DNA from: Bosea sp. ANAM02
Lineage (GTDB): Bacteria; Pseudomonadota; Alphaproteobacteria; Rhizobiales; Beijerinckiaceae
DNA length: 64,000 nt
Direction: 5' to 3'
NCBI RefSeq assembly: GCF_011764485.1
Contig: NZ_AP022849.1
Span: 628,188-692,187 of the forward strand
Part shown: piece by piece, positions 2-60,872 of the stretch
How the letters are laid out: every line of letters begins with the position of its first letter
How positions within the stretch are numbered: position 1 is the stretch's first letter
Made by a program: the position numbers and the translations under genes
The notes under the pieces: generated by a model
The model's database searches: none
The model's input: the letters and a program-made list of their open reading frames with translations, nothing else
Told to the model about the DNA's origin: nothing

Positions 2-763
2 GTTCCGAGTTTCACCCCCGGCATCATGAACGATCTCCTGTGCCTCGGCGACTCCGTCCGCGCGCTGTATGCGGCCGGCCTCGGCGAGCAACTCCGGTAC
101 GTCGTGATCGGCTCGTCCATCCCCGGAATGTTCAACATGGGCGGGGATCTCGGCTACTTCTCCGACGCTATCGCAAGCCAGGACCGAAAGGTCCTGTTCG
201 ATTACGCCCGATGGGCCATCAAGATCATCCATGATGTCTGGGATGGATTCGGCCATCCGGTCATCACCTTCGCCCTGGTGGAGGGAGATGCGCTCGGCGG
301 CGGCTTTGAAGCAGCGCTCGCCCACAACTTTCTTCTGGCCGAGAAAGGGGTGCGTCTCGGGCTGCCGGAGATCACCTTCAACCTCTTTCCGGGCATGGGC
401 GGCACTACCTTCCTGAGCCGCAGGCTGGGCTCGTCGGAGGCCGAGGAAATCCTGTTTCATGGTCGACCTTACACGGCCGAGGAGATGTTCGATCGCGGCG
501 TCGTCGACTACCTCGCCGAGAGGGGGCAGGGCACGGCTAAACTGCTCGAAATCCTAGGTAATTCCGAGGCTTCAACCTCAATCTACCGGGCGCTTCTGAA
601 GGACCGCGACGATCGGCAGGAGCGATGGCAAGTCACCTATGACGAACTTCGTAGGGTGGTCGATATCTGGGCCGAAGGATGCTTCGGCGCGAGGGACGTC
701 GACGTGCGCCACATGCGAAGGATTGTTTCGACGCAGGTCAAGAAGCTCGCCGTCGATCCTTAG
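2..763 (+). CDS. rpfF: RpfF-type crotonase (DSF synthase), 5' end outside the window
   Basis: Crotonase-fold enzyme of the RpfF type, which makes cis-2-unsaturated fatty acid (DSF) quorum signals from acyl-ACP. The frame is already open at base 2, and the residues encoded before the first ATG (base 26) look like the RpfF segment ahead of the crotonase core, so the true start lies upstream of the window. Counting from that ATG, GGGFEAA (Glu95) and LPEITFNLFPGMGG (Glu115) carry the two glutamates that RpfF needs, with the 20-residue spacing of Glu141/Glu161 in the Xanthomonas enzyme. The oxyanion-hole region is FNMGGDL. The next gene is a GGDEF-EAL protein, an arrangement recalling rpfF/rpfR of Burkholderia, where DSF sensing feeds into c-di-GMP. 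The family call is firm; the exact signal made cannot be read. Confidence 0.85.
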   Translation, partial: VPSFTPGIMNDLLCLGDSVRALYAAGLGEQLRYVVIGSSIPGMFNMGGDLGYFSDAIASQDRKVLFDYARWAIKIIHDVWDGFGHPVITFALVEGDALGGGFEAALAHNFLLAEKGVRLGLPEITFNLFPGMGGTTFLSRRLGSSEAEEILFHGRPYTAEEMFDRGVVDYLAERGQGTAKLLEILGNSEASTSIYRALLKDRDDRQERWQVTYDELRRVVDIWAEGCFGARDVDVRHMRRIVSTQVKKLAVDP

Positions 764-782
764 AATTTGAAACTCGATCCTT
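761..782 (+). promoter_or_regulatory. AAGGAT-N10-ATCCTT dyad, site 1
   Basis: TAGAAT-N10-ATCCTT, 10 of 12 positions matching the dyad found in front of many genes in this window. It overlaps the rpfF stop codon and lies about 50 bp before the GGDEF-EAL start. A second ATCCTT sits exactly 21 bp upstream (756-761), inside rpfF. Confidence 0.4.
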
Positions 783-833
783 TACTCTTTTGAAGGAATT
801 TGTGCGACGAAGGACTTCTACATGTGAGGTCCT

Positions 834-3167
834 ATGTCGGCGTTCAGTTTGAACCTGTTTGTCCGGGCCGCCCGTCGAGAGAAGCTCCCGCAGGCGGTCT
901 ATGCCCAGCTCGTCGATGCCCTGTACGGCACATATGCGAGCTTCGTCGCCGGGATGGTCTGCGGCAGCGCCGTCGGCCTGGTGTCCTGGCTCCGTTCAGG
1001 TGATCCCATCTTTCTTTGGGCAACCGCCGCGATCTTCGGAACCTGCGCGTTCCGGACGGTCATCTTGTTCTGGTACCGGTCGCAACCCCGGGGCGATGAC
1101 ATGCGCCTTCGTGAGATCGCGGCCTGGGAGCTCCGCTACGCCGCCGGGGCGTGGACCTTCATGCTCGCGCTCGGCGTCACCAGCGCCCTTGGCGTCTACG
1201 AAGGGAACGACCTGATCACGCTGCTCTACGGCAGCGTCGTGGCCGTCGGCTGCGCCGGCGCCATCGCCGGCCGCAACAGCGCGCGCCCATTGATCGTGAG
1301 CGGGCAGGTCCTGCTCTGCTGCGGTCCGCTCGCGATATCCTTGCTGAGCAGCGGCGAGCCCTATCTGCTCGGCGTGTCGGGCATGATCCTGTTGTTCTTC
1401 GCCGCGGTCTCCTCGACCACGAAAACCCTCTATGCAGGGCTGCGCAGGGCTCTCGTCCAGACGCAGGCCGTCCAGAAGCTCGCAGCGCTGCACAAGCGCG
1501 AGAAGACGCGCTTCGACGATGCGCTGAACACCATGAGGGGTGGGCTGTGCATGTTCGACGTCTCGGGCCGCGTCGTCGTCATCAATGCTGGCCTGCGCTG
1601 CTACTTCCCGACGATCAAGCTTGCCAGCGGAGCGACCATCGGCGGCTTTGTGGAGGCGATCGGCGGAGCGACGCAGGCCAGCACCGAGGATCTCCGTCGC
1701 TTCGGCCTGGAGCTACGCGATCGGCTTGAAGGCGGCCGCCAGACCCCGGTCGAGCTTCTGACTGCCGATGGCAGCATCTTCGAGTTTCGCGTCTCCCTGC
1801 GTGCCGAAGGTGGTGCTGTGGTGGTGGTGGACGACATTTCCGAACGGCGCGCGGCCGAGCGCGAGATCAAGCACCTCGCTCACTTCTGTTCGCTGACGGG
1901 CCTGCCCAACCGCTTCCGTTTCCGCGATGAGATCCAGCGCGTGCTCTCGAACGCGAACAACGGCCTCAGCGGCGATGTCGCCGTCCTCTATGTCGACCTG
2001 GACGGCTTCAAGGAGATCAACGACAGCCTTGGCCATCCGATGGGCGACAAGCTGCTGATCGAGGTCGCCAAGCGACTGCACGAAGCCGCACATGGTGACA
2101 TGGTGGCGCGCTTCGGCGGCGACGAGTTCGTTGTTCTGAAGACCAAGAGCGGAAGCTCACCGGAGCAGCTGGCGAAGCGTCTGATCGACGCCATCAGCGA
2201 GTCCTACGCGATCGACGGTCATCACCTCGTCGTAGGCGCCAGCATCGGCATCGCGTCCTGGCCCGGCGACGGCGAGACGGCCGACGACTTGATCCGCAGC
2301 GCAGACATGGCTCTCTACCATGCCAAGAACGCCGGACGCGGCCAGTATGCTCGCTTCGAGCCGCAGATGGACGCCGACGCGCAGCGCCGGCGAGAGATCG
2401 AAATGGACCTGCGGGTCGCCGTCGCGTCCGGAGCCTTCGAGCTTCACTATCAGCCCCTCGTGGATGCATCTAGCGGGCGCATACTCGCCTGCGAAGCTCT
2501 GCTCCGCTGGCGGCATCCGGATAAGGGCCTGATCTCCCCGGCTCAGTTCATCCCGATCGCCGAGGACACCGGCCTAATCGTAGCGATCGGCGACTGGGTT
2601 CTGGCCAAGGCCTGCAAGGATGCAATGAGCTGGCCTCAGGGCACGCGGGTGGCCGTCAACCTGTCGCCCATCCAGTTCAAGCGCGGTGACGTGGTCGGCG
2701 CCGTCCTCAGCGCGTTGCGGACCTCTGGCCTGCCGCCCGAGCGTCTGGAGTGCGAGATCACCGAGTCTCTGATGATGAGCGATACTCCGGCGACCCGTGA
2801 GGCTATATCCAGCCTCTGTGCGATGGGCGTGCGCTTGGCTCTGGACGATTTCGGGACCGGTCACAGCTCGCTCTCGCGGCTGCACGGCATCCCCTTCCAC
2901 AAGCTCAAGATCGACAAGTCCTTCGTCGACAAGCTTGGCCAAACGCCGGAGTCAATGGCAATCGTGAAGGCGATCGTTTCGCTGGCCCGCGAGCTCGGGA
3001 AGACGGTGGTCGCCGAGGGCGTCGAGACCCGCGTTCAAATGGATATCCTGCAGAAGCTCCATGTTACCGAGCTGCAGGGCTACTTCTTCTCGAAGCCGGT
3101 CCCGATCGCCGATCTTCAAGCGAAGCTGGCCGAGCCCCGGGTGATCAAGCTCGGCCAAGCTGCCTGA
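834..3167 (+). CDS. Membrane-bound GGDEF-EAL c-di-GMP enzyme
   Basis: A 777-residue protein. Residues about 30-195 hold roughly six hydrophobic segments (a MASE-like membrane sensor), 225-340 look like a PAS domain, 345-505 are a diguanylate cyclase domain with intact GGDEF (428-432), and 520-770 are an EAL phosphodiesterase domain. The EAL domain keeps the main catalytic motifs: EALLRW (554), NLS, ECEITES, DDFGTG (671-676), KIDKSF and AEGVET. The inhibitory RxxD site before GGDEF is absent (AHGD), so product inhibition at that site is not expected. A GAGG ribosome site lies 5 bp before the ATG. It follows rpfF by about 70 bp, so it probably connects signal production or sensing with c-di-GMP. 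Which of the two activities dominates cannot be told from sequence. Confidence 0.93.
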   Translation: MSAFSLNLFVRAARREKLPQAVYAQLVDALYGTYASFVAGMVCGSAVGLVSWLRSGDPIFLWATAAIFGTCAFRTVILFWYRSQPRGDDMRLREIAAWELRYAAGAWTFMLALGVTSALGVYEGNDLITLLYGSVVAVGCAGAIAGRNSARPLIVSGQVLLCCGPLAISLLSSGEPYLLGVSGMILLFFAAVSSTTKTLYAGLRRALVQTQAVQKLAALHKREKTRFDDALNTMRGGLCMFDVSGRVVVINAGLRCYFPTIKLASGATIGGFVEAIGGATQASTEDLRRFGLELRDRLEGGRQTPVELLTADGSIFEFRVSLRAEGGAVVVVDDISERRAAEREIKHLAHFCSLTGLPNRFRFRDEIQRVLSNANNGLSGDVAVLYVDLDGFKEINDSLGHPMGDKLLIEVAKRLHEAAHGDMVARFGGDEFVVLKTKSGSSPEQLAKRLIDAISESYAIDGHHLVVGASIGIASWPGDGETADDLIRSADMALYHAKNAGRGQYARFEPQMDADAQRRREIEMDLRVAVASGAFELHYQPLVDASSGRILACEALLRWRHPDKGLISPAQFIPIAEDTGLIVAIGDWVLAKACKDAMSWPQGTRVAVNLSPIQFKRGDVVGAVLSALRTSGLPPERLECEITESLMMSDTPATREAISSLCAMGVRLALDDFGTGHSSLSRLHGIPFHKLKIDKSFVDKLGQTPESMAIVKAIVSLARELGKTVVAEGVETRVQMDILQKLHVTELQGYFFSKPVPIADLQAKLAEPRVIKLGQAA

Positions 3168-8631: not shown

Positions 8632-8653
8632 GAGAATCCGTGAAACTATCCTT
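8632..8653 (+). promoter_or_regulatory. AAGGAT-N10-ATCCTT dyad, site 2
   Basis: GAGAAT-N10-ATCCTT, 10 of 12 matches, ending 11 bp before the ATG of the lipoprotein gene at 8665. Confidence 0.4.
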
Positions 8654-8664
8654 GAGGTCACATC

Positions 8665-9015
8665 ATGCTTCGATTCGCAATCCTCGCCATCGCCGCCATC
8701 GCCTTGGGTGGCTGCGCCAACGATCGAGTCGTCGGCGGCGCACTGATCGGCGGCGGCGCCGGTGCCGTCGTCGGGGGCGTTGCTACGGGCAATGTCGGCG
8801 GCGCAGCGGCAGGCGCCGCGATCGGCGCGGTGGGCGGCGCCATCGTTGCTGACGCGACTGATCCTCGACCTGGCGTGAAATGCGTCCGGCCGGGATACGA
8901 CTGGTACGGAAACCCTGTCTGCTTTGCGGTCGCGGTACCAGCCGACTATCACCGCGGCGATTATGTCGTCTATTACCAGGACGGCGGCGTCGGGCGGCGC
9001 TTCTTCGGCTACTGA
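8665..9015 (+). CDS. Glycine-zipper lipoprotein
   Basis: A 116-residue lipoprotein. The signal peptide ends in the lipobox LGGC (Cys17), so the protein should be lipid-anchored in the envelope. Residues about 23-65 are a glycine-zipper segment (repeated GGxxxG such as GGALIGGGAGAVVGG) of the type that forms tightly packed membrane helices in OmpA-like and 17-kDa antigen-like proteins. The C-terminal half is Tyr/Asp-rich. GAGG lies 7 bp upstream of the ATG. The stop overlaps that of the convergent membrane gene. Confidence 0.8.
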   Translation: MLRFAILAIAAIALGGCANDRVVGGALIGGGAGAVVGGVATGNVGGAAAGAAIGAVGGAIVADATDPRPGVKCVRPGYDWYGNPVCFAVAVPADYHRGDYVVYYQDGGVGRRFFGY

Positions 9016-10973: not shown

Positions 10974-11507
10974 CTATCGGTCCGAGAGATCGAGCGAGAA
11001 GGCTTCCTCGGGGGTCGGGAGATCCGAAAGCGACGAAAGGCCTGTGCGCTCCAGGAATTTCGCCGTCGTGGCATACGCGGCGGCAGCCCCCGTGCCGCGG
11101 CGCCGGCCAACGACTTCGACGAGACCGGCATCGACAAGTGCGTCGAGTACAACGCGGCCCAGCTTCACACCCCGAACGGTCTCTATCTGCTTCAGTGTTA
11201 CGGGCTGGTGCATGGCGATCACCGCCAGGGTGGCGACAGCTTGCTCTGAGAGCCTACGGCCCGAGCCCAGTCGCGCCTCTGCAGGAAGCAGCTCGGCGCG
11301 CGCGCGCATCATATAGCCGCCGCCCTCATGAACAACTTCGATACCACGCCCCTTCCAGAAGGCGCAGATGCGTTCGATTGCGCCTGCGACATCAGCGCCG
11401 GCGGGCATCATCTCTGAGAGACGTTCCGGCTTCAGAGGTCGCGAGGCTGCGAAGAGCGCGGCCTCGATGCGCTGATCGAGCGTGGCGAAGAGCGGCTCGA
11501 TGGTCAT
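10974..11507 (-). CDS. scpB: ScpB, condensin-like accessory protein
   Basis: A 177-residue ScpB homolog. ScpB dimerises and binds the kleisin ScpA in the SMC-ScpAB chromosome-organising complex. Features: IEAALFAASRPLKPERLSE at the N-terminus, GGGYMMRAR, LSEQAVATLAVIAMHQPVT (the most conserved ScpB motif) followed by IETVRG, and the C-terminal GLSSLSDLP. The two winged-helix domains are both present. The ATG at 11507 overlaps the stop of the upstream gene (ATGA), so it is translationally coupled to an unknown 307-residue protein that stands where scpA normally lies. An smc gene is 9 kb away. Confidence 0.9.
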   Translation of the reverse strand: MTIEPLFATLDQRIEAALFAASRPLKPERLSEMMPAGADVAGAIERICAFWKGRGIEVVHEGGGYMMRARAELLPAEARLGSGRRLSEQAVATLAVIAMHQPVTLKQIETVRGVKLGRVVLDALVDAGLVEVVGRRRGTGAAAAYATTAKFLERTGLSSLSDLPTPEEAFSLDLSDR

Positions 11508-12427
11508 GCGGCGTGTTCGGAGCCCCACTCGGCGCGGAGCGCTTCGGCGGCCTTCAGCGCACGAGGGACCGAGATATTGGCGGCCTTGTTGGCCTGGACC
11601 AGCTCGACGACGACCTTCTCGTCGAGGTCGAGGCGCCCGCGGCTCAACTGCCGAAGCGCGATGATGACGATGTCCTTGCTCTGCGCCGCGACCGCGCGCT
11701 CGATCACCTGCTGGGCTTGATCGAGGACGGACATCAGCCCGGTGATCACATCGATGCTGCGGCTGATCTGAGCGTTCATCGCGAAATTGTAGGCGTTGGC
11801 GAGCGCCTTGGCCGCAGCCGACAGCGCCGAAGCCGTGGCCTTGGGGTCGATACCGGCCGCGTCGGACAGCTGGGTGATCGTCACATTGCTCATCACAAGG
11901 ACCGACCAGATCTCGCGGAGGTAGAGGTCCGGAGTTCCCTCCGAGGTGATGGCGCCTTCGATCTCGCCGAGCAGCGGCACGAACCCCTTGAGCACCGCCT
12001 GATAATCGGCGCGGGAGACCCGCACCAGGCGGTGACGCCAATTCTCGTCCGCCTCCGGCAGAGCGTCGATGTCACGCTCGATGCCGCTGGCATGCTCGAT
12101 CAAGGTCGCGATCCCGAACAACGCGGCCGGCATCGATCCGTGTTCCTCTTCGAGGGCACTGAGGAAGTCGTCCTCGGTCAGGAGCGAGAGATTGCCGCTC
12201 TTGTCGCTGAGATCGATTGCGAGCCTTCGCGTCGCGGCCGTCAAGCCCTCAACAGCCTCAAGGGGTATCTTGAACTTGGCCGCTAGCGCGTCGGCGAAGA
12301 TCCGTGCCGCCTCGACCACAGCCTGGATTCGGTCGAGGTGAGAGGCCTCGAAATGGCGGAGCGTCGGAATGCTAGCTGCCAGCTCGACATACTCGCTAAC
12401 CGCTCCAGCCTGGGCCATCACGTTCAT
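11504..12427 (-). CDS. Unknown protein coupled to scpB (candidate kleisin replacement)
   Basis: A 307-residue, largely helical protein. I start it at 12427 because GGAG lies 9 bp upstream; the longer start at 12478 lies inside the regulatory dyad. It overlaps scpB by ATGA in the position usually taken by scpA, but I cannot recognise ScpA's conserved N-terminal or winged-helix signatures. A C-terminal stretch (KDIVIIALRQLSRGRLDLDE) is faintly reminiscent of the ScpA C-terminal winged helix. A divergent kleisin is plausible; an unrelated protein is equally possible. Confidence 0.6.
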   Translation of the reverse strand: MNVMAQAGAVSEYVELAASIPTLRHFEASHLDRIQAVVEAARIFADALAAKFKIPLEAVEGLTAATRRLAIDLSDKSGNLSLLTEDDFLSALEEEHGSMPAALFGIATLIEHASGIERDIDALPEADENWRHRLVRVSRADYQAVLKGFVPLLGEIEGAITSEGTPDLYLREIWSVLVMSNVTITQLSDAAGIDPKATASALSAAAKALANAYNFAMNAQISRSIDVITGLMSVLDQAQQVIERAVAAQSKDIVIIALRQLSRGRLDLDEKVVVELVQANKAANISVPRALKAAEALRAEWGSEHAA

Positions 12428-12476
12428 TGACACGTTCTCCAATCCATCTGCCACGCGGTGCGGCAGTTCGACTTTC

Positions 12477-12498
12477 ATGGAATGAAGGTCCGGTCCTT
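12477..12498 (-). promoter_or_regulatory. AAGGAT-N10-ATCCTT dyad, site 3
   Basis: On the plus strand ATGGAA-N10-GTCCTT, 9 of 12 matches. Lies 50 bp upstream of the start of the scpB-coupled gene and downstream of the convergently placed neighbour's stop at 12542. Confidence 0.35.
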
Positions 12499-12541
12499 GT
12501 CCACGCTCAAGAACCCGCCATCCACCGACCTGATGCGCTGC

Positions 12542-13156: not shown

Positions 13157-13169
13157 GGCCGTACTCGTT

Positions 13170-13191
13170 AAGGATTTTGCTTATGATCCTT
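13170..13191 (-). promoter_or_regulatory. AAGGAT-N10-ATCCTT dyad, site 4 (perfect)
   Basis: AAGGAT-N10-ATCCTT, 12 of 12, spaced 14 bp before the ATG at 13156. The inner bases are AT-rich. Confidence 0.55.
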
Positions 13192-13260
13192 TTTGAACAC
13201 GAATTCCTCAATCCGCGGCTTTTCCTGATCCACCGCTTCATTCGAGTGCGCGAGATAGAC

Positions 13261-15388: not shown

Positions 15389-16024
15389 TCAACGCGCGAT
15401 GATCTGTCTAATCTGGGCGCCATAGTAATTCACGTAGGATGGGACGCGAATTAGCGTCACCGTGGCGATTAAATCTTGTGAAGTTCGCTGCTTAGAAGAC
15501 TGATATGTTACAAGTATCGGTACTTCAATTGTCCACGACCATCTTATATTACCGTAAGCATCATTCAGCAACCCCTGAGACAGGATACGTGCCGGACCGC
15601 TAGGCGCCGCCGTCGTGACATACTTGTTCTCGACGACAGCGACGAAATTTCCCGATTCCCGGAGGGCTCGCTGATAGCCGTCCCAGCCGATCGGGGTCAT
15701 GAGCCGCTGGGCAGACTGAAACTGACGCCGGTAGTTCGCGAAGTCGAAGGTGTAGACGCGCGTCACCGCATCCATCGTCCACTTCAGAACATCCTCGTCG
15801 CTCGCGTGTCGCTGATCGAGCGGGATGACCGGGAGAAGCTTCCCCGATGGCTCCGTCATCAGATATCGATACTCGTCCTCGCGCGTAAGAATGGACCAGG
15901 TTCCGAGCAGCGACAGCCCCGTAAGCGCGACCATGACAACGATCATGCGCAGGAGATATTGGATTCGCGTGCGGCGGTAGTTGTCGCGCAAAAGGATTGT
16001 GGCGACGATTTTCTCTGCGTCCAT
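15389..16024 (-). CDS. dotI: DotI/IcmL-like inner-membrane T4BSS protein
   Basis: A 211-residue protein with the DotI/IcmL (IncI TraM) layout: a short cytoplasmic N-terminus with LLRDNYRRTRIQYLLRM, one membrane helix (about 28-50), and a periplasmic VirB8-like domain with W(T/S)MDAVTRVYTFDFANYR and a C-terminal YYGAQIRQI. DotI forms an inner-membrane ring of the type IVB secretion apparatus. ATG at 16024 with GGAG 6 bp upstream. Divergent from the icmD-like gene over 178 bp that carries several AAGGAT words. Confidence 0.85.
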   Translation of the reverse strand: MDAEKIVATILLRDNYRRTRIQYLLRMIVVMVALTGLSLLGTWSILTREDEYRYLMTEPSGKLLPVIPLDQRHASDEDVLKWTMDAVTRVYTFDFANYRRQFQSAQRLMTPIGWDGYQRALRESGNFVAVVENKYVTTAAPSGPARILSQGLLNDAYGNIRWSWTIEVPILVTYQSSKQRTSQDLIATVTLIRVPSYVNYYGAQIRQIIAR

Positions 16025-16089
16025 GACGACTCCGATCGACGCCGGTAGCTTCCCATTGAAAGTGAAGAAGCGCAATCAATGGAATTTCG

Positions 16090-16128
16090 AAGGATTGCCC
16101 TACAGCGATCCTTGTGAGTCCCAAGGAT
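16090..16128. promoter_or_regulatory. Cluster of AAGGAT/ATCCTT half-sites between dotI and the icmD-like gene
   Basis: AAGGAT (16090-16095), ATCCTT (16108-16113) and AAGGAT (16123-16128). The spacers are 12 and 9 rather than the usual 10, so this is a variant of the window-wide dyad. It sits in the middle of the divergent promoter region. A further GAGGAT is at 16183. Confidence 0.35.
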
Positions 16129-16202
16129 CGGCCTTACACTGCTCGCGCCGCAATGCTATGTGGCGAATCCATCCTGATCCATGAGGATCGAAAGGGACGC
16201 AG

Positions 16203-16586
16203 ATGAAGACCTTCGAGAAGATTCGGGCTCTGCCCTATCTCGCGCTGGCCGTCGTCACGGTTCACCTGATGAGCGCAGCTCCAGCTCTCGCTCAGCAGTC
16301 GACCACGATCGGCGATGCGGCGCAGACCTGGACCCGCCAGCTGACCAACGTCGGTAAGTTCCTGGTCGCCGGTTGCTTCCTCGTCGGCATCGGCTTTGCC
16401 GGTGTTGGACTGATGAAGCTCAAGGAAGCCGCCGCCGAGCAGGGCCGTGGCCAGACCAAGTATTCGGACGGCCTGTGGCGCATCGCCGTCGGCGCCGGCC
16501 TCGCCGCGCTGCCCGCGGTCGTCAACATGACCTCGAACTCCACCGGTCTCGGCGGCGTCTCGATCACGAACGCCTCGGGCTTCTGA
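16203..16586 (+). CDS. IcmD/DotP-like T4BSS membrane protein
   Basis: A 127-residue protein with a signal peptide (cleavage after ALAQ near residue 31) and two hydrophobic helices. GKFLVAGCFLVGIGFAGVGL followed by MKLKEA, then a short basic loop and a second helix ending in LAALPAVVNM and a Gly-rich tail, is the pattern of the small DotP/IcmD-DotE/IcmC-DotV family of Dot/Icm systems. Their role is probably in the inner-membrane part of the channel. AAAGGGA precedes the ATG by about 6 bp. Followed 36 bp later by a larger protein with two such modules. Confidence 0.7.
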   Translation: MKTFEKIRALPYLALAVVTVHLMSAAPALAQQSTTIGDAAQTWTRQLTNVGKFLVAGCFLVGIGFAGVGLMKLKEAAAEQGRGQTKYSDGLWRIAVGAGLAALPAVVNMTSNSTGLGGVSITNASGF

Positions 16587-18903: not shown

Positions 18904-19680
18904 TCAGGCCTGAAGTTCGACGGCGTCGGAGGCATCCGACTCCAGACCGGAAGCCGCCGGCGTGACGGTCGATGTGGCGAATTCCTGGGTGATCTTGTCG
19001 ACGGCGGCGCGCAGATCGGCATCGCCTTCGAGAAGGGTCTTGATCTTGCGGATGGCATGGATGGCGGTGGTGTGATCACGACCTCCGAAGCGACGGCCGA
19101 TCTCGCCGGTCGACTTTTCGAGGAGGGAGCGCGAGAGGTACATCGCGACCTGCCGCGGCATGATCAGCTTGAGCGCGCGGCTCTCGGAGATGATGTCGGT
19201 GCGCGAGACACCGTAGTGACGTCCGACGATCGACTGAAGGACGGCGACGGTCCGGGGCTGCGGGCCTTCCGGGGCCGGCGGCGGAACATAGTCCGGCTTC
19301 TGGACCTCGGCGAAGACGGAGACGGGAGCGCGGCGCTTGGCGGTGGCGCTGAGATCGACGATCGGTGCCTTGGGGGGCTGGTTCATCCCGCCGCGAACGA
19401 CGACACCGACGGAAACCACATCTTCACGCTGCTCGCGCAGGCACTCGGTGATAATGCCGATGTAATTCGTCAGAACGTGGTGGGCGAGGAACTTGGTCGA
19501 TGTCGACAGGGCGACAATGCCGCCGTTGAACGATTCGAAGGAGAGCTGGCGGAGGAAGTGGGCATAGATCTGAGCGCCAGCGCGCTGCTCGATCGCCTTC
19601 GTGGCCAGGCGCCACGCAACATCCATGGGGACCTGCGAGGCAGCAGGAGCGGAGCACTGAACCGAAGACTGAACCAACAT
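18904..19680 (-). CDS. DnaA-like protein with domains I and IV but no AAA+ ATPase
   Basis: A 258-residue protein. Residues about 20-95 look like DnaA domain I (W...LATKAIEQRAG.QIYAHFLRQL, then LSTSTKFLAHHVLTNY), the part that self-associates and binds the helicase. Residues 96-145 are a Pro-rich linker. Residues about 146-220 are DnaA domain IV, the DnaA-box-binding helix-turn-helix, including the signature GGRDHTTAIHAIRKI (199-213). Domain III, with Walker A and B, is entirely missing, whereas a normal DnaA has about 450 residues. It could bind DnaA boxes as a regulator or competitor of initiation but cannot hydrolyse ATP by itself. ATG at 19680; 19626 is an alternative. The gene has its own terminator. 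Confidence 0.85.
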   Translation of the reverse strand: MLVQSSVQCSAPAASQVPMDVAWRLATKAIEQRAGAQIYAHFLRQLSFESFNGGIVALSTSTKFLAHHVLTNYIGIITECLREQREDVVSVGVVVRGGMNQPPKAPIVDLSATAKRRAPVSVFAEVQKPDYVPPPAPEGPQPRTVAVLQSIVGRHYGVSRTDIISESRALKLIMPRQVAMYLSRSLLEKSTGEIGRRFGGRDHTTAIHAIRKIKTLLEGDADLRAAVDKITQEFATSTVTPAASGLESDASDAVELQA

Positions 19681-19725
19681 GACGAACCACCAAAACGTTG
19701 ACCGTGAAAGCACCAAACCATGCCG

Positions 19726-19823
19726 GTCCTTGGGCGTCAACAGGATTGCGCATTTAATCCTTAACAGCGCAAGGATCGTTGCTGAGAAGCCACAACAGTC
19801 CTTACGCGAGCCAGTTATTCCTT
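19726..19823 (-). promoter_or_regulatory. AAGGAT-N10-ATCCTT dyad, site 5, with phased half-sites
   Basis: CAGGAT-N10-ATCCTT at 19741-19762 (11 of 12). The same 100 bp also holds GTCCTT (19726), AAGGAT (19771), GTCCTT (19798) and TTCCTT (19818). The steps between the TCCTT words are 31, 41 and 20 bp, that is close to whole helical turns. Lies upstream of the DnaA-like gene, so it may control a replication function. Confidence 0.5.
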
Positions 19824-20127: not shown

Positions 20128-20132
20128 TCCTT
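20111..20132 (-). promoter_or_regulatory. AAGGAT-N10-ATCCTT dyad, site 6
   Basis: ATGGAT-N10-TTCCTT on the plus strand, 10 of 12. It covers the start codon region of the small membrane protein, so part of the match may reflect the ATG and its ribosome site rather than an operator. Confidence 0.25.
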
Positions 20133-35299: not shown

Positions 35300-35378
35300 C
35301 GTTCGAAGGCTTCTGGTGGATGGGGGCTTTGTGAGTTGCGTCCGAGAACGCCACTCTGCATGCAAGGAGAGTGGATCA

Positions 35379-40808: not shown

Positions 40809-40830
40809 CTGGATTAAAGATCCGTTCCTT
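40809..40830 (-). promoter_or_regulatory. AAGGAT-N10-ATCCTT dyad, site 11
   Basis: CTGGAT-N10-TTCCTT, 9 of 12, ending 14 bp upstream of the adk start, the same distance as for site 4. A further AAGGAT is at 40859 on the side of the D12 methylase. Confidence 0.4.
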
Positions 40831-40927
40831 GAGCAAGGCCGTGGATCCGCGCATCGTCAAGGATTGTTTTTAGTTTCGTCCAGCGCTTCCATGATCGCCT
40901 CAACGAACACCTCCCGAGGAGATCGAT

Positions 40928-43883: not shown

Positions 43884-43892
43884 GCGCCGAAC

Positions 43893-43914
43893 ATGAATCG
43901 CGATATCATTCCTT
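43893..43914 (+). promoter_or_regulatory. AAGGAT-N10-ATCCTT dyad, site 12
   Basis: ATGAAT-N10-TTCCTT, 9 of 12, in the short divergent region between ndk and the unit at 43883. Confidence 0.35.
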
Positions 43915-43935
43915 GTAAATTCGGAGAATCGAGCT

Positions 43936-44355
43936 TTGTCGACTGAGCGCACCTTCGCCATGATCAAGCCGGACGCTACGCGCCGGCACCTCGTTGGCCA
44001 GATCCTGGAAATGGCCGGCGCAGCGGGACTTCATGTTCGCGCGATGAAGCGACTGAGGCTCGACGATCAGGACGCCTCGCTCATGTATGCCGAGCACGAA
44101 GGGAAGTCATGGCTTCCCGAACAGATCGCCTACATGACGTCGGGAGCCGTCGTCGCGATCGTTTTCGAGGGCCAGGACGCCATCACCCGCTGGCGGGCGC
44201 TGATGGGACCCACCGATCACACGAAGGCGCCGGCCGGCACGATCCGGAACAAGTTCGCGATCTCCTATCGCGAGAACAGCGTCCACGGCTCGGACTCGCC
44301 GGAAGCAGCGAACCGCGAGATCCCGCTCTTCTTCGCCAGCTCCGAGATCGCGTGA
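43936..44355 (+). CDS. ndk: Nucleoside diphosphate kinase
   Basis: A 139-residue Ndk that balances NTP and dNTP pools. MIKPDATRRHLVGQI at the N-terminus, GPTDHTKAPAGTIRNKF, and the active-site histidine His117 in ENSVHGSDS. Full length and intact. TTG start with GGAG about 9 bp upstream. The cell must also have a chromosomal copy; with dcd it serves nucleotide supply for this replicon. Confidence 0.95.
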   Translation: MSTERTFAMIKPDATRRHLVGQILEMAGAAGLHVRAMKRLRLDDQDASLMYAEHEGKSWLPEQIAYMTSGAVVAIVFEGQDAITRWRALMGPTDHTKAPAGTIRNKFAISYRENSVHGSDSPEAANREIPLFFASSEIA

Positions 44356-49638: not shown

Positions 49639-49695
49639 TTCAGCAGCCTCTTCTTCAACAACTGCTCACCCATCACAAGGAGCGCAGCACGATGC

Positions 49696-49741
49696 AAGGA
49701 TCTAGAGGGAATCAATCCTTGGTCATCCACCAGCAATCCTT
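49696..49741. promoter_or_regulatory. AAGGAT/ATCCTT cluster with two ATCCTT boxes 21 bp apart
   Basis: AAGGAT at 49696-49701, ATCCTT at 49715-49720 and ATCCTT at 49736-49741. The two ATCCTT words are exactly 21 bp apart, as for the AAGGAT pair at 35273/35294. The AAGGAT-to-ATCCTT spacer is 13, not 10. Centre of the divergent region between 49638 and 49801. Confidence 0.4.
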
Positions 49742-49800
49742 GATAATCGTCCCCGCAAAGGCGAAACTCCTGACCGTGATGCAGCGCAAGGAATTTCGCC

Positions 49801-50178
49801 GTGCCCATGCCGACCTACCGCAACCTTCACGGCACGATCTTCTTCGGGAAGGAAGGGGAATTTCGGCACGTCTGCGACGAAGGGCAAATGCTCAGCCTGG
49901 TCTTCGACAGTGAGAACGGAACCGTTCACAAGCACGGTCACGCCGAGCGCGTGAGAGCCTGGCTTGATGCGACGCAGGCCAAACTGCGGGCGAACGGTGA
50001 TTTCGGAGAGCTGATGGCAAACAACCTGGAGATCGCCAGCTTTCCCGCTTGCGACGCCACCATCAAGGTGCTCAATGAGCTTGTGATCGATCAGACACCG
50101 GCTCTGCCCCGCCTGCTCGAAGCCCTTGCTGGAGCGAGCGCCGAAGCTCCCGCTTCAAAGGTTCTCCCCCGCCTTTGA
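49801..50178 (+). CDS. Hypothetical protein
   Basis: A 125-residue soluble protein, GTG start with AAGGAA 9 bp upstream. No family recognised. 15 bp before the phosphoesterase gene, so probably in one unit with it. Confidence 0.6.
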   Translation: MPMPTYRNLHGTIFFGKEGEFRHVCDEGQMLSLVFDSENGTVHKHGHAERVRAWLDATQAKLRANGDFGELMANNLEIASFPACDATIKVLNELVIDQTPALPRLLEALAGASAEAPASKVLPRL

Positions 50179-53740: not shown

Positions 53741-53787
53741 GGGTGCTCAGTCTCAAGCCAACTCTCCCGGCAGGGCATGAAAGCAAC

Positions 53788-53809
53788 AAGGACCGCGATC
53801 GAAAATCTT
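53788..53809 (-). promoter_or_regulatory. AAGGAT-N10-ATCCTT dyad, site 13 (weak)
   Basis: AAGGAC-N10-AATCTT, 9 of 12, 48 bp upstream of the HD-GYP-like gene. Confidence 0.25.
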
Positions 53810-53878: not shown

Positions 53879-54835
53879 ATGAAAGCTGATCTCGTCGACC
53901 TGAACTTCTCGGACCTCTATCTGCGCCTCGATAAGGACGGGCAGGCGATCTACCGGATCGGGCCCAACAACGAGGGCAAGTCGGGTCTGGCCGCTGTGCC
54001 GGATGGCCATGACAGCGATCTCGCAGCGGTCCGGAACGCGATCAATGACGACGGGACGAACTCCGGCACGGTCACGTACGACGAGATGAGGCTTCGCTTC
54101 GTGCGAATGCCCACCGTCGAGGATCAGGTTTGGGCGGCAATTCGTCGTATCCCTTTGTCACCCCCGACGCTCGACGAGCTTGGGCTGCATCCCGACGCGG
54201 TGACGATGATGCGCGGCTTCGCGGCCAGGCGAGGACTCGTGCTTGTTGGCGGCGCGACGGGCGCGGGAAAGACGACCACAGTTTTCGGGGCGCTCCACGA
54301 CTATCTGAAGATCCGCGGAGGCGTCGCCATCACCCTGGAGGATCCGCCTGAGCTCCTGCTGCAGGGACCGGTCGGTGCCGGCATCTGCTTCCAGATGGGC
54401 ATCTCGGAAACCTACACTTGGCAGATGGCGGTGATGGCCGCTCTCAGATCACGGCCGCGCTACATCCTGATCGGCGAGATCCGAACACCCGAGGCAGCGC
54501 AGCAGGCTCTGATTGCGTCGCAGAGCGGCCACCTCGTCCTCACCACAGCTCACGGCGGATCCGTCGAGGAGGCTGTCGAGACGATCATTGGCTTGGCGGA
54601 GGTCAGGCTCGGTGAACAGGCGGCGCGCCGCCTGATGGCCGGGAACCTGCTCGCCGCTATCCACCAGTGGATGGGGCACTATGGCCCAAACCTGGAGGTG
54701 GTTCAGACCAAGTCTGGCGGGACGCGCGCCCAGGATCCCGTGCGCTCCGGGATCATCGATAATCGCCCCGACGTGCTGCGTCAGAATCTCGTCAAGTTCA
54801 CTGCGCCGCCGCCGAGAGCAGCGGCAGCTGAATAA
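53879..54835 (+). CDS. dotB: DotB/PilT-type secretion ATPase
   Basis: A 318-residue ATPase of the DotB (IncI TraJ) type within the PilT/VirB11 superfamily. Walker A GGATGAGKTTT (124-134), Asp box ITLEDPPE, Walker B-like YILIGEIRTPEAA, and the histidine box SGHLVLTTAHGGS. Hexamers of DotB power the type IVB apparatus. N-terminal 100 residues are the ring-forming domain. GGCGGA precedes the ATG. It is 36 kb away from dotI, so the secretion genes are dispersed. Convergent with a coiled-coil gene, overlapping by 38 bp. Confidence 0.87.
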   Translation: MKADLVDLNFSDLYLRLDKDGQAIYRIGPNNEGKSGLAAVPDGHDSDLAAVRNAINDDGTNSGTVTYDEMRLRFVRMPTVEDQVWAAIRRIPLSPPTLDELGLHPDAVTMMRGFAARRGLVLVGGATGAGKTTTVFGALHDYLKIRGGVAITLEDPPELLLQGPVGAGICFQMGISETYTWQMAVMAALRSRPRYILIGEIRTPEAAQQALIASQSGHLVLTTAHGGSVEEAVETIIGLAEVRLGEQAARRLMAGNLLAAIHQWMGHYGPNLEVVQTKSGGTRAQDPVRSGIIDNRPDVLRQNLVKFTAPPPRAAAAE

Positions 54836-55920: not shown

Positions 55921-56811
55921 TCAGGCTCCAGTCGCGGTCATCGGTTGAGCGCCGACCCGCTGCGTAAGGGTGCGCAGCGAGGCTGCGAGGTGTTGCTCTG
56001 AAGTCATCTCGCCAGCTCGGCCGCCACGCTGAAGCGAGAAATTGGGCATCGGCTCGAATGCGTCACTCGGCTCCGCGGGCGGAACGATCGCCGGCTGGGT
56101 GGAAGCCATGACAGGCCGCGGCGCGGGGCCGACTTCGACGATCGTGCTATTGGTGCCCGGGGCGGCCGGGAGATTGGTAGCGACTTCCGGCTCTGCGGCA
56201 GAGCGGAAGCCCCGGAAGTTCCGGAGCATGGTTTCCGTCGCTACCTGGAGTTCGGCATGGGCGCTGACCGCGTTATCCCGCTCGGCCGTCAGCAATGCGT
56301 TTGCCTGCAGTGCGGCAGCCAACGAGGCATTCGTCTGTTCGAGCTCGGACTGCAGGGCCTCTGAGAGACGCGTGGTCTCGCGCAGCTGGACAAGAATGTC
56401 GTGCGCGCGCTGCTCGGCCTGCTGCAGTTCTGCGGAAAGCCGCTTCACGTCTGCCTCATGCTGGGTCGAAAGCTGCTGCAAGGCATCCGTCAGCCTGGCA
56501 TGGTCGACGTTCTTGTCGCAGGTCACCTGCCGCAGGTCCGCGGCTACAATGTCGCGCTCACCCTCGACACGGGCCACTCTCTGGCTGAGCTGCTCGATCT
56601 GGTCGTCCTTCCGAGCGACGAGCTCCTGAAGCTCAGCGATCTGACGGTCGCGCTGGGAGATTGAATCCATCACGGCAACGACCATCGCCTGCCGGCGCTC
56701 GTGGATGTGATCGCACAGCGCACCGACACGCGAAAGCGTGTCCGCGGCGGCGGCATCCCCTGTCGGGTTCGGATCGGGATTGGGCGTCACAGTCACTGGC
56801 ACGATCACCAC
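55921..56811 (-). CDS. Coiled-coil protein
   Basis: A 296-residue protein with a central coiled coil (about 30-195) and a Pro/Ala-rich C-terminal 90 residues ending in a helix. It leads the two-gene coiled-coil unit. The N-terminus (MVIVPVTVTPNPDPNPTG) is Pro-rich. Function unknown; the pair is reminiscent of structural or cytoskeletal scaffold proteins. Confidence 0.72.
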   Translation of the reverse strand: MVIVPVTVTPNPDPNPTGDAAAADTLSRVGALCDHIHERRQAMVVAVMDSISQRDRQIAELQELVARKDDQIEQLSQRVARVEGERDIVAADLRQVTCDKNVDHARLTDALQQLSTQHEADVKRLSAELQQAEQRAHDILVQLRETTRLSEALQSELEQTNASLAAALQANALLTAERDNAVSAHAELQVATETMLRNFRGFRSAAEPEVATNLPAAPGTNSTIVEVGPAPRPVMASTQPAIVPPAEPSDAFEPMPNFSLQRGGRAGEMTSEQHLAASLRTLTQRVGAQPMTATGA

Positions 56812-56821: not shown

Positions 56822-56884
56822 GGATCAAGGATTGAAACTCAAGACCATCAATAGGCGGGTGGTCAAGCGTTCAATCCTTGATCC
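56822..56884. repeat. 15-bp perfect inverted repeat with inner stem
   Basis: GGATCAAGGATTGAA (56822-56836) and its exact reverse complement (56870-56884), 33 bp apart, with an inner GACCA/TGGTC pairing. One arm lies upstream of the coiled-coil gene, the other in the last codons of dnaQ. It contains the AAGGAT/ATCCTT words. It may be an attenuator or terminator after dnaQ or an enlarged operator; there is no T run. Confidence 0.6.
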
Positions 56885-57585
56885 ACTGTGCTCGCCCACC
56901 GTTTCCATACTGCCTCATCGCCGAGCTTTCCGATGAAGGCCCTGTGCTGCTCCATCTCCTCCGGCGAAGGCTGGATGACGCCCCGCCGGGGGAACCACGA
57001 CTGAAGGGCGCCTGCGGCCGCGACGATCTTGCGCTGCTCGGGCTCAGCCTTCTCGGTTGTGAGCTGCAGCTGATCGAGGCCGAGGAGCTTGAAATAGACG
57101 GGGATGAGCAGCTGACTGTCGAGCAGCGCGCCGTGAAGCGTGCGCGAGGAGCGGTCGATGTTGAACCGATCGAGCAGAGCGTTCAGGCTCGCTGGGCTTC
57201 CCGGAAAACGCTGCCGCGCAATGAGCAGCGTGTCCACGGTCCCGCTCCAGGGCACAGTGCTAATTCCGCAGCGACGCAGTTCCGCCAGGATGAACTCGAC
57301 ATCGAAGCTGGCGTTGTGAGCGACGACCTTGGCGCCCCCAATGAAGTCGACGAGGTCCAGCGCAATCTCGTTGAAAATAGGCTTGTCGGCCAGGAACTCG
57401 TCGCTCAGCCCGTGGATTTCCTGGGCCTCAGCGGGCATCTTCTGCTGGGGATTGATATACCGATGGAAGACGTTCCCGGTTTCGACCAGGCCGACAGTTT
57501 CGATGAGACCGACCTCGCAGATGCGGTCGGTCGCCTTATTCACCCCGGTTGTCTCGGTATCGAAAAAGATCAGCCGTTCGTTCAT
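56863..57585 (-). CDS. dnaQ: DnaQ-like DNA polymerase III epsilon (3'-5' exonuclease)
   Basis: A 240-residue proofreading exonuclease: ExoI FFDTETTG (Asp9, Glu11), ExoII AHNASFDVEF, ExoIII HGALLDSQLL with His and Asp. The region after about 190 carries a Gln/Pro-rich stretch suitable for binding the polymerase alpha subunit. Together with dnaE at 60945 it supplies a replicon-encoded polymerase core. A perfect copy of the dyad lies 22 bp before its ATG. Confidence 0.92.
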   Translation of the reverse strand: MNERLIFFDTETTGVNKATDRICEVGLIETVGLVETGNVFHRYINPQQKMPAEAQEIHGLSDEFLADKPIFNEIALDLVDFIGGAKVVAHNASFDVEFILAELRRCGISTVPWSGTVDTLLIARQRFPGSPASLNALLDRFNIDRSSRTLHGALLDSQLLIPVYFKLLGLDQLQLTTEKAEPEQRKIVAAAGALQSWFPRRGVIQPSPEEMEQHRAFIGKLGDEAVWKRWASTVDQGLNA

Positions 57586-57606
57586 CACTGGCTCGCAGGG
57601 CGAAAT

Positions 57607-57628
57607 AAGGATTAGTGGCGCAATCCTT
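57607..57628 (-). promoter_or_regulatory. AAGGAT-N10-ATCCTT dyad, site 15 (perfect)
   Basis: AAGGAT-N10-ATCCTT, 12 of 12, 22 bp upstream of the dnaQ start and just after the stop region of the RusA-like gene. Confidence 0.55.
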
Positions 57629-57678
57629 ATCACCCGCTCTCGCATGCCGAAACGAAGATCCGCGCCCGTCCCCGCTTT

Positions 57679-58694: not shown

Positions 58695-58734
58695 CTTTCC
58701 AGGCTCGGCGCCTGATCCGAAAGTCACAACGCCC

Positions 58735-60852
58735 TCACAGAACCGGAGCAATCGGCTTCGAGCGCGAGAACCCTTTGCCCCGCATCCCCGCCTTCGGCTT
58801 GTCGTCCACGAAGGGGTCGAAGAAGCTGTCGATCGTCAGGCCGCTCTCAGCAAAGAACGGCGACGGGTTCACCGCCCGGCCATTGCGGATCGACGCGCCC
58901 GACACCCAGAGCGATTTGCGGGCACGCGTGAAGGCGACGTGCACCAGCCTACGCTCCTCCTCCATTCCGCCTGCGGACGGCCCGAACCAACGATCACCGG
59001 CCTTGCCCCTTACAGGCTCGCGCAGCGCTCTCGGGCTCGGCACCACGGCCGAGTCCACGCCCACGCAGAGCACATGGTCCCACTCCAACCCTTTGCTCGC
59101 ATGCATGGTCGATATCGTCACCGCACCGCGCTTGCTTCGCTCAACCGCGATTTCTCCGCCAAGAACCAGCCTCTCCAGGAAGAGCGGCGGGGAGGGCTCC
59201 TCGTTGGCGATCCGGCGCAGGACGTTCAGGTTCTCGACCCGGCGCTTTGCAGCCCGATTCCCTGCCTTGCCGGCGAAATCCTCATAGCCGACCCCCTCAG
59301 GGCGAAGCACGAATTCCAGAATACTGGCCGTGTCTTCCTCGGCGTGCGCATGGGAGCGGTGGAGCGCCTCCAGAAGGCTGGAGAGGCGTTTGAGCGCCTC
59401 TACGGCTTCCGGGACGACCCGTCCCTGCGGGTTGGCTGCAATGCGAGCGCAAACCTCATGGAACGGCTCTCCGGTGGCTAGGTGCTGGTCGACGAGCGCG
59501 TGCTCAGCGACAGGTCCGAGCTGACGCGTCGGCCGGTTGACGATCCGCTGGAAGGCGAGATCGTCCCAGGGGTTCACGGCCAAGCGCATGTAGGCCGCGA
59601 TATCGCGAACCTCCTCGCGATCGACAAGGCTCGCTCCACCCGCCAACTCGTAGGGGATCTTGGCCTTGAGGAGGCCCTCCTCGATCGTGGGGATCACGAA
59701 GGCCGATCGAACCAGCACTGCGATGTCATCGTACTTCTGGCCGGCCCTCGCGAGCTCGACGAGGCGCGCCGCAACCGCCCAGGCCTCTTCCCGCTCACCC
59801 CCATAAAGGCCGTGCTGGACACGTTCTCCGGACGTCCCTGATGCCAGACTTTTCGGGAACTTACGGCGGTTCCAGCCGACCAGCTTTACTGCAGGGGCGA
59901 GGATCTCGTCCGTGCAGCGGCGATTGATCGTGAGCGGATAGATCCGGGCGTTCTCGCCGGCGATGTGGTCCATCGCCTCGGGATACCCGCCCTGAAACGA
60001 ATAGATGCTCTGGTCGACGTCCCCAACGACCATGACGCATGCCCCACGAGAGGCCAGAAGCCTCGCAAGCTCGACCTGGGCTTGATTGGCATCCTGTGCC
60101 TCGTCGACGAGCAGATGACCAATTCCACCGATCTCGACATCAGCGACTTCCGGATGGTCCCGCAACAGCGCAGAGGCGCGCACGACGAGATCACCAAAGT
60201 CCATCACGCCGCGGCGATCGAGTTCGAACTGGTAGGCGACGTAGAACTGGGCCAGCCGTTCCTCTTCCTCAGATCGGCGGGGGCGTTCGGCATCTTCGAT
60301 CTCAGCGACCGTCAGGCCCCAGCATTTCCAACGCCGGATTACCGTCGGCAGCGCGGAGATATAGCGGTCAACTTTGTCGGCGCGTCCGGGCATGCCCTCC
60401 GGGAAATGGCGTTCAACACAGCTCTTGATCAGCCGCAGCGCGTCATCGTCGTCGATGATGGTGAAGTGCTTGGGTAGTCCGGCCGTCTTGTGATGTCGCC
60501 TGAGAATCCGTGCTGCCAGCGAATGAAATGTACCCATCTGGATGCGTGAGGCGCTGCCAATATCCAGGAAATGCGCGATGCGCTCGCGGATCTCTTTCGC
60601 CGCCTTGTTGGTGAAGGTCGCGATCGTGATCGCCTCGGGTTTCACGCCTCGTTTCGCGATCAGATGAGAGACCCGCGCAACCAGCGTCCTCGTCTTGCCC
60701 GTGCCGGCGCCGGCCATGACGATAACGCTCGCCTCGGTCGCATTCACGACAGCTGCCTGGTCCTCCGAAAGGGCCGGCTCCGACTTCGCTGATTCATGCT
60801 GTGAGAAAAGATCCAACGCACACACCGATTCTCTATCCACTGCCGCGACCAT
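58735..60852 (-). CDS. UvrD/PcrA-type superfamily 1 DNA helicase
   Basis: A 705-residue 3'-5' helicase. Motif I MAGAGTGKTRT (46-56), Ia TFTNKAAKEI, II LLVDEAQDAN, III VVGDVDQSIYSFQG, IV INRRC, V TISTMHASKGLEWDHV, VI VHVAFTRARKSL. A complete UvrD/Rep-like enzyme for repair or replication of the replicon. The start at 60852 lies inside a dyad copy; a GTG at 60825 with GAGA upstream may be the true start. Head-to-head with dnaE. Confidence 0.92.
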   Translation of the reverse strand: MVAAVDRESVCALDLFSQHESAKSEPALSEDQAAVVNATEASVIVMAGAGTGKTRTLVARVSHLIAKRGVKPEAITIATFTNKAAKEIRERIAHFLDIGSASRIQMGTFHSLAARILRRHHKTAGLPKHFTIIDDDDALRLIKSCVERHFPEGMPGRADKVDRYISALPTVIRRWKCWGLTVAEIEDAERPRRSEEEERLAQFYVAYQFELDRRGVMDFGDLVVRASALLRDHPEVADVEIGGIGHLLVDEAQDANQAQVELARLLASRGACVMVVGDVDQSIYSFQGGYPEAMDHIAGENARIYPLTINRRCTDEILAPAVKLVGWNRRKFPKSLASGTSGERVQHGLYGGEREEAWAVAARLVELARAGQKYDDIAVLVRSAFVIPTIEEGLLKAKIPYELAGGASLVDREEVRDIAAYMRLAVNPWDDLAFQRIVNRPTRQLGPVAEHALVDQHLATGEPFHEVCARIAANPQGRVVPEAVEALKRLSSLLEALHRSHAHAEEDTASILEFVLRPEGVGYEDFAGKAGNRAAKRRVENLNVLRRIANEEPSPPLFLERLVLGGEIAVERSKRGAVTISTMHASKGLEWDHVLCVGVDSAVVPSPRALREPVRGKAGDRWFGPSAGGMEEERRLVHVAFTRARKSLWVSGASIRNGRAVNPSPFFAESGLTIDSFFDPFVDDKPKAGMRGKGFSRSKPIAPVL

Positions 60853-60872
60853 GGATTGATCGAATGGTCCTT
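60851..60872 (-). promoter_or_regulatory. AAGGAT-N10-ATCCTT dyad, site 16
   Basis: ATGGAT-N10-GTCCTT, 10 of 12, in the divergent region between the helicase gene and dnaE, so it could act on both. Confidence 0.4.

Follow-up and report, generated by a model that had tools for sequence, protein, structure and literature searches.

The KorA/KorB regulators of IncP plasmids are plasmid-encoded and act on operators at many backbone promoters of their own plasmid, about a dozen in number. Operators of the MarR family are compact palindromes at few promoters, and MucR/Ros proteins are global, oligomeric regulators with AT-rich, degenerate sites. A second replicon is commonly assumed to rely on the regulation of its host. 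DnaA boxes are asymmetric 9-bp elements that occur in either orientation and in arrays, with the core ATCC and a variable position 5 (PMC5043019). Here, a 9-bp box with the consensus CAATCCTTG is described in a megaplasmid of the soil bacterium Bosea sp. ANAM02. The DNA analysed, referred to as the window, comprises 64,000 nt and forms the final 64 kb of contig C2 (NZ_AP022849.1, 692,187 bp, positions 628,188 to 692,187). The boxes probably mark the promoters of this one replicon for a regulator that binds phased arrays and is most likely encoded by the replicon itself.

The distribution resembles that of KorA/KorB in that the sites lie at many plasmid promoters and are rare on the chromosome. 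In contrast to the dozen operators of that system, the Bosea replicon carries hundreds of boxes on ~0.7 Mb, arranged in phased arrays. The KORA family itself gave a match with an E-value of 0.016 inside a sigma factor, below the family cut-off. The arrays also set the replicon apart from MarR-type operators, although the candidate binder discussed below shares the MarR fold. The box shares with DnaA boxes its length, asymmetry, use of both orientations, arrays, ATCC core and variable position 5, but most Bosea copies have TT instead of AC at positions 7-8. Compared with the DnaA consensus TTATNCACA, boxes over the threshold keep T4 and C6 at 0.97-0.99, A7 at 0.22-0.39 and C8 at 0-0.04.

Three Bosea replicons were read whole and their genes called with a small custom caller: replicon A, to which the window belongs (G000:C2); replicon B, plasmid pBSY19_1 of Bosea sp. 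RAC05 (NZ_CP016463.1, 708,738 bp), the nearest named replicon; and replicon D, a third Bosea relative of 758,792 bp (G024:C2). The dyad sites of pBSY19_1 coincide in coordinates with those of G009:C1. The other contig of the ANAM02 genome, the chromosome (4,955,300 bp), was sampled in 40 stretches of 20 kb (800 kb of 4.96 Mb, one stretch with 2,000 masked bases). Reciprocal best hits link 426 of the 666 A genes to B at a median identity of 50%, and A and D share 553 at 91%. Since A and D orthologues are 91% identical, D does not provide an independent test.

The original prediction had reported a 22-bp dyad, AAGGAT-N10-ATCCTT, before unrelated genes of the window, and this observation is confirmed. 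All 16 sites exist with the scores given: perfect copies at 13170, 25660 and 57607, 10-11 of 12 matches at 761, 8632, 19741, 20111, 27717, 32893 and 60851, 9 of 12 at 12477, 40809, 43893, 53788 and 53828, and 8 of 12 at 32787. Dyads with up to three mismatches number 36 in the window, compared with 13.5 in 100 shuffles (standard deviation 3.7, largest 22). The spacer of 10 is prominent among spacings of 0-24 in the window as well as across the whole replicon, where 7 sites are perfect, 16 have one mismatch and 80 have two. An unprejudiced enumeration of inverted 4-mer pairs in intergenic DNA places AAGG-N14 and AGGA-N12 at the top (29 and 28 copies; 2 and 2 in the chromosome sample). No description of the motif came up in search listings of open-access PubMed Central papers.

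The dyad is specific to the replicon and to its intergenic DNA. On C2, all 7 perfect sites are intergenic, as are 15 one-mismatch sites (1 coding) and 55 two-mismatch sites (25 coding), that is, 22 intergenic and 1 coding with up to one mismatch and 77 and 26 with up to two. The chromosome sample holds no perfect and no one-mismatch site, and two-mismatch sites are found there in 4 intergenic and 7 coding positions. Genome-wide, 23 of the 26 sites with at most one mismatch lie on the 692-kb C2 and 3 on the 4.96-Mb chromosome, which makes up 88% of the genome. Equal frequency in coding DNA or on the chromosome had been named as the outcome that would speak against the proposal; both frequencies are far lower than in replicon intergenic DNA. 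Among 37 genomes of the genus, including the one analysed, the same search gave 26 sites in G000, 26 in G009, 21 in G024 and 0-7 in the others. A palindromic matrix refined on A, with the threshold at 10% expected from the chromosome sample, finds 262 sites in A (198 intergenic), 226 in B (182) and 265 in D (190).

The dyad is only the most frequent way in which an asymmetric 9-bp box, C[AG][AT]T[CT]C[TA]T[GC], is paired. A scan with just this half finds 642 intergenic boxes in A (6.14 per kb), 583 in B (5.86 per kb) and 655 in D (4.93 per kb), compared with 172 in the chromosome sample (1.57 per kb). The N10 inverted pair ranks first among the pairings, with 53 cases at offset 15 in A and B together. 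Boxes of the same orientation in A and B are spaced by 12, 20-23, 30-33, 41-44, 51-55, 62-64 and 73-74 bp, and the spacings between inverted and everted boxes are 15-17, 25-28, 36-38, 46-49 and 57-59 bp. A period of 10.5-10.75 bp is the strongest in the direct, inverted and everted classes, and the phasing extends over about seven turns. When pairs within 2.1 bp of the phase are counted, 260 of 401 direct pairs in A (65%) and 231 of 346 in B (67%) are in phase (expected 0.41), as are 187 of 316 (59%) and 140 of 221 (63%) opposite pairs at least 20 bp apart (expected 0.39). B is out of sample because the matrix was trained on A, and 60 permuted control matrices on A reach in-phase shares of at most 0.51 (direct) and 0.47 (opposite). 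The words ATCCTT, ATCCAT, ATCCAC, ATTCTT and ATTCAT lie in phase with strong boxes; control words show little or no phasing (ATCGTT 1.2- and 1.5-fold, ATCCGA 1.4 and 1.2, GATCGA 0.9).

A rigid dimer would be expected to use one fixed inverted spacing, but in A and B direct and everted pairs are phased too. The enrichment of phased direct and everted repeats indicates that the unit is the 9-bp box in phased arrays and not the 22-bp dyad. The half-turn shift of opposite boxes would place all protomers on one face of the DNA, and the arrays suggest cooperative binding along that face, not solely a rigid dimer. Of the earlier proposal that one dimeric regulator controls most of the replicon, replicon specificity and promoter association have held up, and the single rigid dimer on the 22-bp dyad has not.

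The sites are associated with promoters. Among intergenic regions of at least 40 bp in A and B, 109 of the 238 divergent ones contain a site of at least 13 bits, as do 101 of the 463 tandem ones and 3 of the 84 convergent ones. For single boxes, regions of at least 60 bp were compared between A and the chromosome sample: at least one box occurs in 92/111 versus 36/97 divergent regions, and at least two in 71/111 versus 6/97 divergent, 76/201 versus 12/234 tandem and 5/33 versus 7/73 convergent regions. In convergent regions at least one box is equally frequent in A (10/33) and the chromosome (20/73), so the promoter association rests on the contrast with the other region classes. The distance to the gene was originally put at 10-60 bp before the start codon; in A and B the median distance of the dyad centre is 80 bp in divergent regions (n=209) and 64.5 bp in tandem regions (n=104), counting sites of at least 13 bits within 250 bp. 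Such a position of 65-80 bp before starts fits either activation or repression.

The association is conserved at the promoters of orthologous genes whose proteins are ~50% identical. Among the 426 orthologue pairs of A and B, an upstream site is present in both replicons in 86 cases, in A alone in 67, in B alone in 51 and in neither in 222 (odds ratio 5.6, p 4e-15), and in a number of conserved cases the distance is near-identical. Mirrored dyad positions show no covariation (868 complementary versus 915 expected in A, 801 versus 805 in B), as expected of protein sites and unlike an RNA hairpin. An RNA hairpin or terminator was rejected on this ground, as compensatory changes were not seen in A or B. 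Among the upstream regions that A, B and D share, those richest in boxes lie before genes for a pilin-like protein, a DNA cytosine methyltransferase, further pilus, secretion and Ig-domain proteins, and unknowns; replication, nucleotide and regulatory genes have boxes before them as well (names from the RAC05 annotation and Pfam). The product of A340, which has the densest conserved array, had been considered as an autoregulator and was rejected, being pilin-like. Two adjacent genes for pilin-like proteins of ~150 aa lie at G000:C2 370926-371396 and 370270-370725, and the former has the most box-rich conserved upstream region, with 11 boxes in A and 8 in B.

Beyond Bosea, relatives of the Rep3-type initiator and the primase/polymerase are found on the megaplasmid of M. 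extorquens AM1, Rhizobium leguminosarum pRlX5 and two Acetobacter plasmids; a relative of Rep also occurs on a Salipiger plasmid. Searches for the N10 dyad show no enrichment on pRlX5, AM1 or Salipiger (0, 2 and 0 sites with one mismatch; reversed control 2, 2 and 0) and a small excess in A. persici (6) and A. pasteurianus (2; controls 0 and 0). Related boxes were detected in samples of 20 x 20 kb, ~30% of each record. In pRlX5, AGGATTC occurs 185 times against 15.9 expected, and a related box, CGAATCCTTG, is present at 4.5 per kb; 56% of direct (n=87) and 67% of inverted pairs (n=70) are in phase. In the AM1 megaplasmid, AAGGAAC occurs 54 times against 10.4 expected, with the related box CGTTCCTTCG at 2.8 per kb. 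A search for Rep in public genome contigs gave two distant Psychrobacter matches and nothing else, and in the viral contig collection none, where DnaA-domain proteins occur at 80 loci. pRlX5 (NZ_CP140867.1) also bears a second replicon-wide dyad, ATTGTYRACAAT, with 39 exact copies on 1.32 Mb (for example at 1009031 and 1009059; reversed control 0). This dyad is absent from the AM1, A. persici and RAC05 plasmids and occurs once in G000.

We infer that the boxes serve transcriptional regulation through cooperative binding. A replicon-encoded DNA-binding protein would recognise CAATCCTTG boxes in front of many, and probably the majority, of the transcription units. Bound to phased boxes, its protomers would share one DNA face and bind cooperatively, and replication, pilus, secretion and unknown plasmid genes would be set as one regulon. 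The best supported single candidate for the binder, judged from co-distribution in sequence data, is a MarR-family winged-helix protein encoded outside the window (G000:C2:181754-182206, +; RS02040 in RAC05), with a fold assigned by Pfam HTH_27/MarR_2; the identification is tentative. Homologues occur on 102 plasmid records, and among the 20 listed the best after RAC05 are pRlX5 (2e-18) and AM1 (2e-17), the two other replicons with related boxes; no Acetobacter appears in the organism counts of the matching plasmid records. The orthologues align over their length. With replicon-specific 10-bp matrices at 7 bits, three boxes of the same orientation precede marR in A (22 and 53 bp apart) and in B (31 and 20 bp), four in AM1 and one in pRlX5. 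An unrecognised protein is a possible binder as well. The Pfam scans took in all 231 proteins of A that measure 55-330 aa and have partners in B and D (229 + 2), which leaves aside 9 proteins cut by stretch borders, longer proteins and non-shared proteins, and 25 families per scan were listed out of 67, 33 and 31. A DNA-binding protein may have escaped for these reasons.

The other proteins considered, namely the mini-DnaA, PadR-like, GcrA and MucR-like proteins, fit the box distribution less well than the MarR-family protein. GcrA is present on AM1 and not on pRlX5. A MucR/Ros-type or other oligomeric nucleoid-like protein that silences the replicon from the boxes is an unlikely binder, although MucR/Ros relatives are encoded on all five records searched, including these replicons, and an oligomeric family with a one-domain DNA reader would explain the phasing. 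The DNA-binding part of the conserved plasmid MucR is, by eye, nearly the same as that of the chromosomal MucR, but only the plasmid is box-rich and the chromosome is box-poor. The divergent MucR-like protein RS01165/A332 has no relative at 1e-5 on plasmid records other than RAC05, and of the Acetobacter plasmids, which do have a relative, the one sampled (75 kb) lacks a box excess comparable to Bosea. Somewhat less probable again is the mini-DnaA of the window (18904-19626, -), in which DnaA domain I (DnaA_N) is joined through a linker to domain IV (DnaA_C) without an AAA+ domain and for which the boxes would be relaxed DnaA boxes. It had once been the leading candidate. Each of the three Bosea replicons has one Bac_DnaA_C copy, matches at E<=1e-40 occur in 3 of 67 genus genomes, the same three, and in A and D eight boxes precede the gene. 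In phase with boxes, an enrichment of the DnaA core ATCCAC is seen (1.33 versus 0.57 and 1.39 versus 0.72), and a structure model predicts two folded domains with a disordered linker. Box position 5 varies between C and T, and PMC5043019 describes E. coli DnaA as indifferent to this position. Most of the base-contacting residues given there are kept, the changes being G for P423 and I for L438, so that the canonical TTATCCACA would be expected from the mini-DnaA; A and B contain it once each. In RAC05, no more than two boxes precede the gene. The candidate was lowered when the domain IV protein was not found on pRlX5 and AM1: no PF08299 protein (E up to 1) occurs on these or the two Acetobacter plasmids, yet pRlX5 and AM1 carry related boxes, any host DnaA set aside. 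Of 12 further mini-DnaA-like proteins aligned (from 120 listed and 846 found), most are gapped DnaA, mutually alike and unlike the Bosea ones.

A rigid dimer on the 22-bp dyad, as originally proposed, is improbable to a similar or slightly greater degree. It would account for the N10 inverted pair as the most frequent pairing, and one protein that might form such a dimer, the PadR-like C2:37072-37374, is 69% identical between A and B and encoded divergently to an HU gene with boxes in the shared region; however, phased direct and everted repeats are enriched as well, and PadR-like relatives are absent on pRlX5 and AM1 (of 5 plasmid records at E<=0.01, RAC05 alone is from this replicon family). 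That the boxes organise or segregate the replicon, in a parS-like or SMC-related manner and without gene control, is very improbable. The replicon family encodes SMC and ScpA/ScpB, and among the matches listed the sites are spread along C2, but convergent regions seldom hold dyads and site presence tracks orthologous promoters. Least credible is the reading of the box as a promoter element used by a sigma factor that the replicon encodes. Two sigma-70-family genes common to A, B and D have sites upstream, and a relative of sigma factor RS00720 occurs in both the AM1 and pRlX5 samples. Nevertheless, the boxes have no clear orientation bias towards the gene (109 versus 84 in A, 107 versus 94 in B, 36 versus 43 in pRlX5, 27 versus 34 in AM1), and a single dyad often lies between two divergent genes. 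That the dyad is not a sigma-70 promoter element, in keeping with the original remark on its spacing, agrees with the lack of an orientation tie and of a fixed -10 distance. Anchoring of dyads to a -10 or an edge TTGACA was also rejected, with a tandem-region edge signal of 6/58 towards and 6/48 away from the gene.

Several observations weigh against a replicon-encoded regulator on phased arrays and against the MarR-family protein in this role. The full dyad is found in fewer than half of the intergenic regions, and no -10 element was found at a fixed distance from dyads. Everted pairs are out of phase in pRlX5 (31%, n=29), and phasing is not clear in AM1 (0.44, n=48; 0.43, n=28; 0.40, n=20). 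In 50-kb stretches of Azospirillum and Neorhizobium replicons with ~30-33% identical MarR homologues (~5-6 kb intergenic DNA each), the box words are not in excess. Known MarR proteins are dimers on compact palindromes, from which phased direct repeats are not predicted. The box load upstream of marR (percentiles 0.87, 0.85 and 0.80) is not the highest: mini-DnaA reaches 0.95 in A, 0.96 in D and 0.51 in B, and GcrA lies at 0.92-0.95 in each of the three. Box-bearing replicons also encode a relative of a sigma factor and MucR/Ros paralogues.

Within the window, two dyads (740-761 and 761-782) and boxes at 775, 792 and 809 form a region (740-817) before a gene identified by domain search as GGDEF/EAL (834-3167, +). 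The dyad at 8632-8654 has one strong half (box 8646), with its centre 22 bp before 8665-9015 (+). Boxes 12440, 12476 and 12491, including dyad 12477-12498, lie at 12440-12499 upstream of 11504-12427 (-). The perfect dyad 13170-13191 (region 13169-13192) falls within a 1.26-kb gap of gene calls, the nearest downstream start being 511 bp away. The original list was incomplete; for example, it overlooked a site at 48610 and the array 16089-16130, which has three boxes in alternating orientation (16089 +, 16106 -, 16122 +) between 15389-16024 (-) and 16203-16586 (+). Upstream of the mini-DnaA gene, a candidate box binder itself, a five-box array at 19724-19804 (19724 -, 19740 +, 19755 -, 19770 +, 19796 -) holds the dyad 19741-19762. 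The dyad at 20111 is present, but together with an overlapping one at 20119 (20111-20140) it falls on the 3' end of the SMC gene (20132-23665, -) and covers the start of a small frame with weak support (19822-20127, -).

The strongest dyad of the window (26.7 bits, 25659-25682) lies between the dCTP deaminase gene 24547-25578 (-) and the N6/N4 DNA methyltransferase gene 25750-26577 (+) and is retained in RAC05 and G024. At 27717-27739, a dyad with one strong half is centred 26 bp before 27754-28980 (+). The GcrA-family regulator gene (32104-32748, -) has five boxes of at least 7 bits upstream in each of the three Bosea replicons, and a five-box array at 32786-32900 separates it from 32941-33588 (+). 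Further along the window, boxes 35256 (-), 35272 (+) and 35293 (+) (35256-35301) precede 35379-35726 (+), dyad 40809 and box 40858 (40809-40866) precede a D12-class methyltransferase gene (40928-41824, +), and the dyad 43892-43915 is centred 56 bp before ndk (43960-44355, +). Boxes 49695 (+), 49713 (-) and 49734 (-) (49695-49742) are found before 49807-50178 (+), and dyad 53788 (53787-53809) before a T2SSE-family ATPase gene (53879-54835, +); the neighbouring 53828, present with its 9 of 12 matches, is absent among the sites of at least 10 bits of the refined matrix. A dyad with three mismatches (18.7 bits) and a perfect box at 56826 (56826-56848) lies before 55921-56811 (-), the perfect dyad 57606-57629 is centred 32 bp before the dnaQ-like exonuclease gene 56863-57585 (-), and boxes 60850 (+), 60865 (-) and 60883 (+) (60850-60891) precede a UvrD-type helicase gene (58735-60747, -).

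Other sequence features of these replicons were recorded. GANTC occurs at 4.7 and 4.6 per kb in A and B intergenic DNA versus 2.7 in the chromosome sample, and YGAKTCG, the GcrA motif, at 0.75 and 1.2 versus 0.30; the replicon with the denser motifs encodes both GcrA and the N6/N4 methyltransferase. The chromosome has a repeated palindrome of its own, for example ATGCT-N13-AGCAT with 33 copies in the 800-kb sample (C1 intergenic). On replicon A there are 15 genes for tRNAs (Leu, Ser, Arg, Tyr, Met, Ile, Asn, Ala, Glu) and a single tmRNA hit (G000:C2 81974-99330, 418724, 587097 and 618888). The RAC05 replicon is annotated with a recA of its own, ruvA/ruvB, gyrA/gyrB, dnaE, dnaQ, ligA, topoisomerase 3 and ScpA/ScpB, with ribonucleotide reductase, thymidylate synthase, nucleotide kinases and CTP synthase, and with three sigma-70-family factors, type IVB secretion, PilV pilus genes and a type I-E CRISPR-Cas system.

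The replicon family may be widespread, because relatives of the pilin-like protein 370926-371396 sit on public contigs of up to 1.43 Mb. At somewhat less than even chances, we propose an alphaproteobacterial megaplasmid family (~0.7-1.3 Mb) with a promoter code of its own, consisting of a replicon-encoded cooperative regulator, phased arrays at the majority of promoters and a box that would have diverged with the replicon lineage, from CAATCCTTG in Bosea to CGAATCCTTG in pRlX5 and CGTTCCTTCG in the AM1 megaplasmid. By this divergence, each replicon would be insulated from its host and its relatives. If true, this would be an orthogonal control system spanning a whole replicon. It would offer a view of how a megaplasmid holds several hundred genes together as a coherent set when it is transferred, and a natural series of operator specificities that could be read against one protein family.

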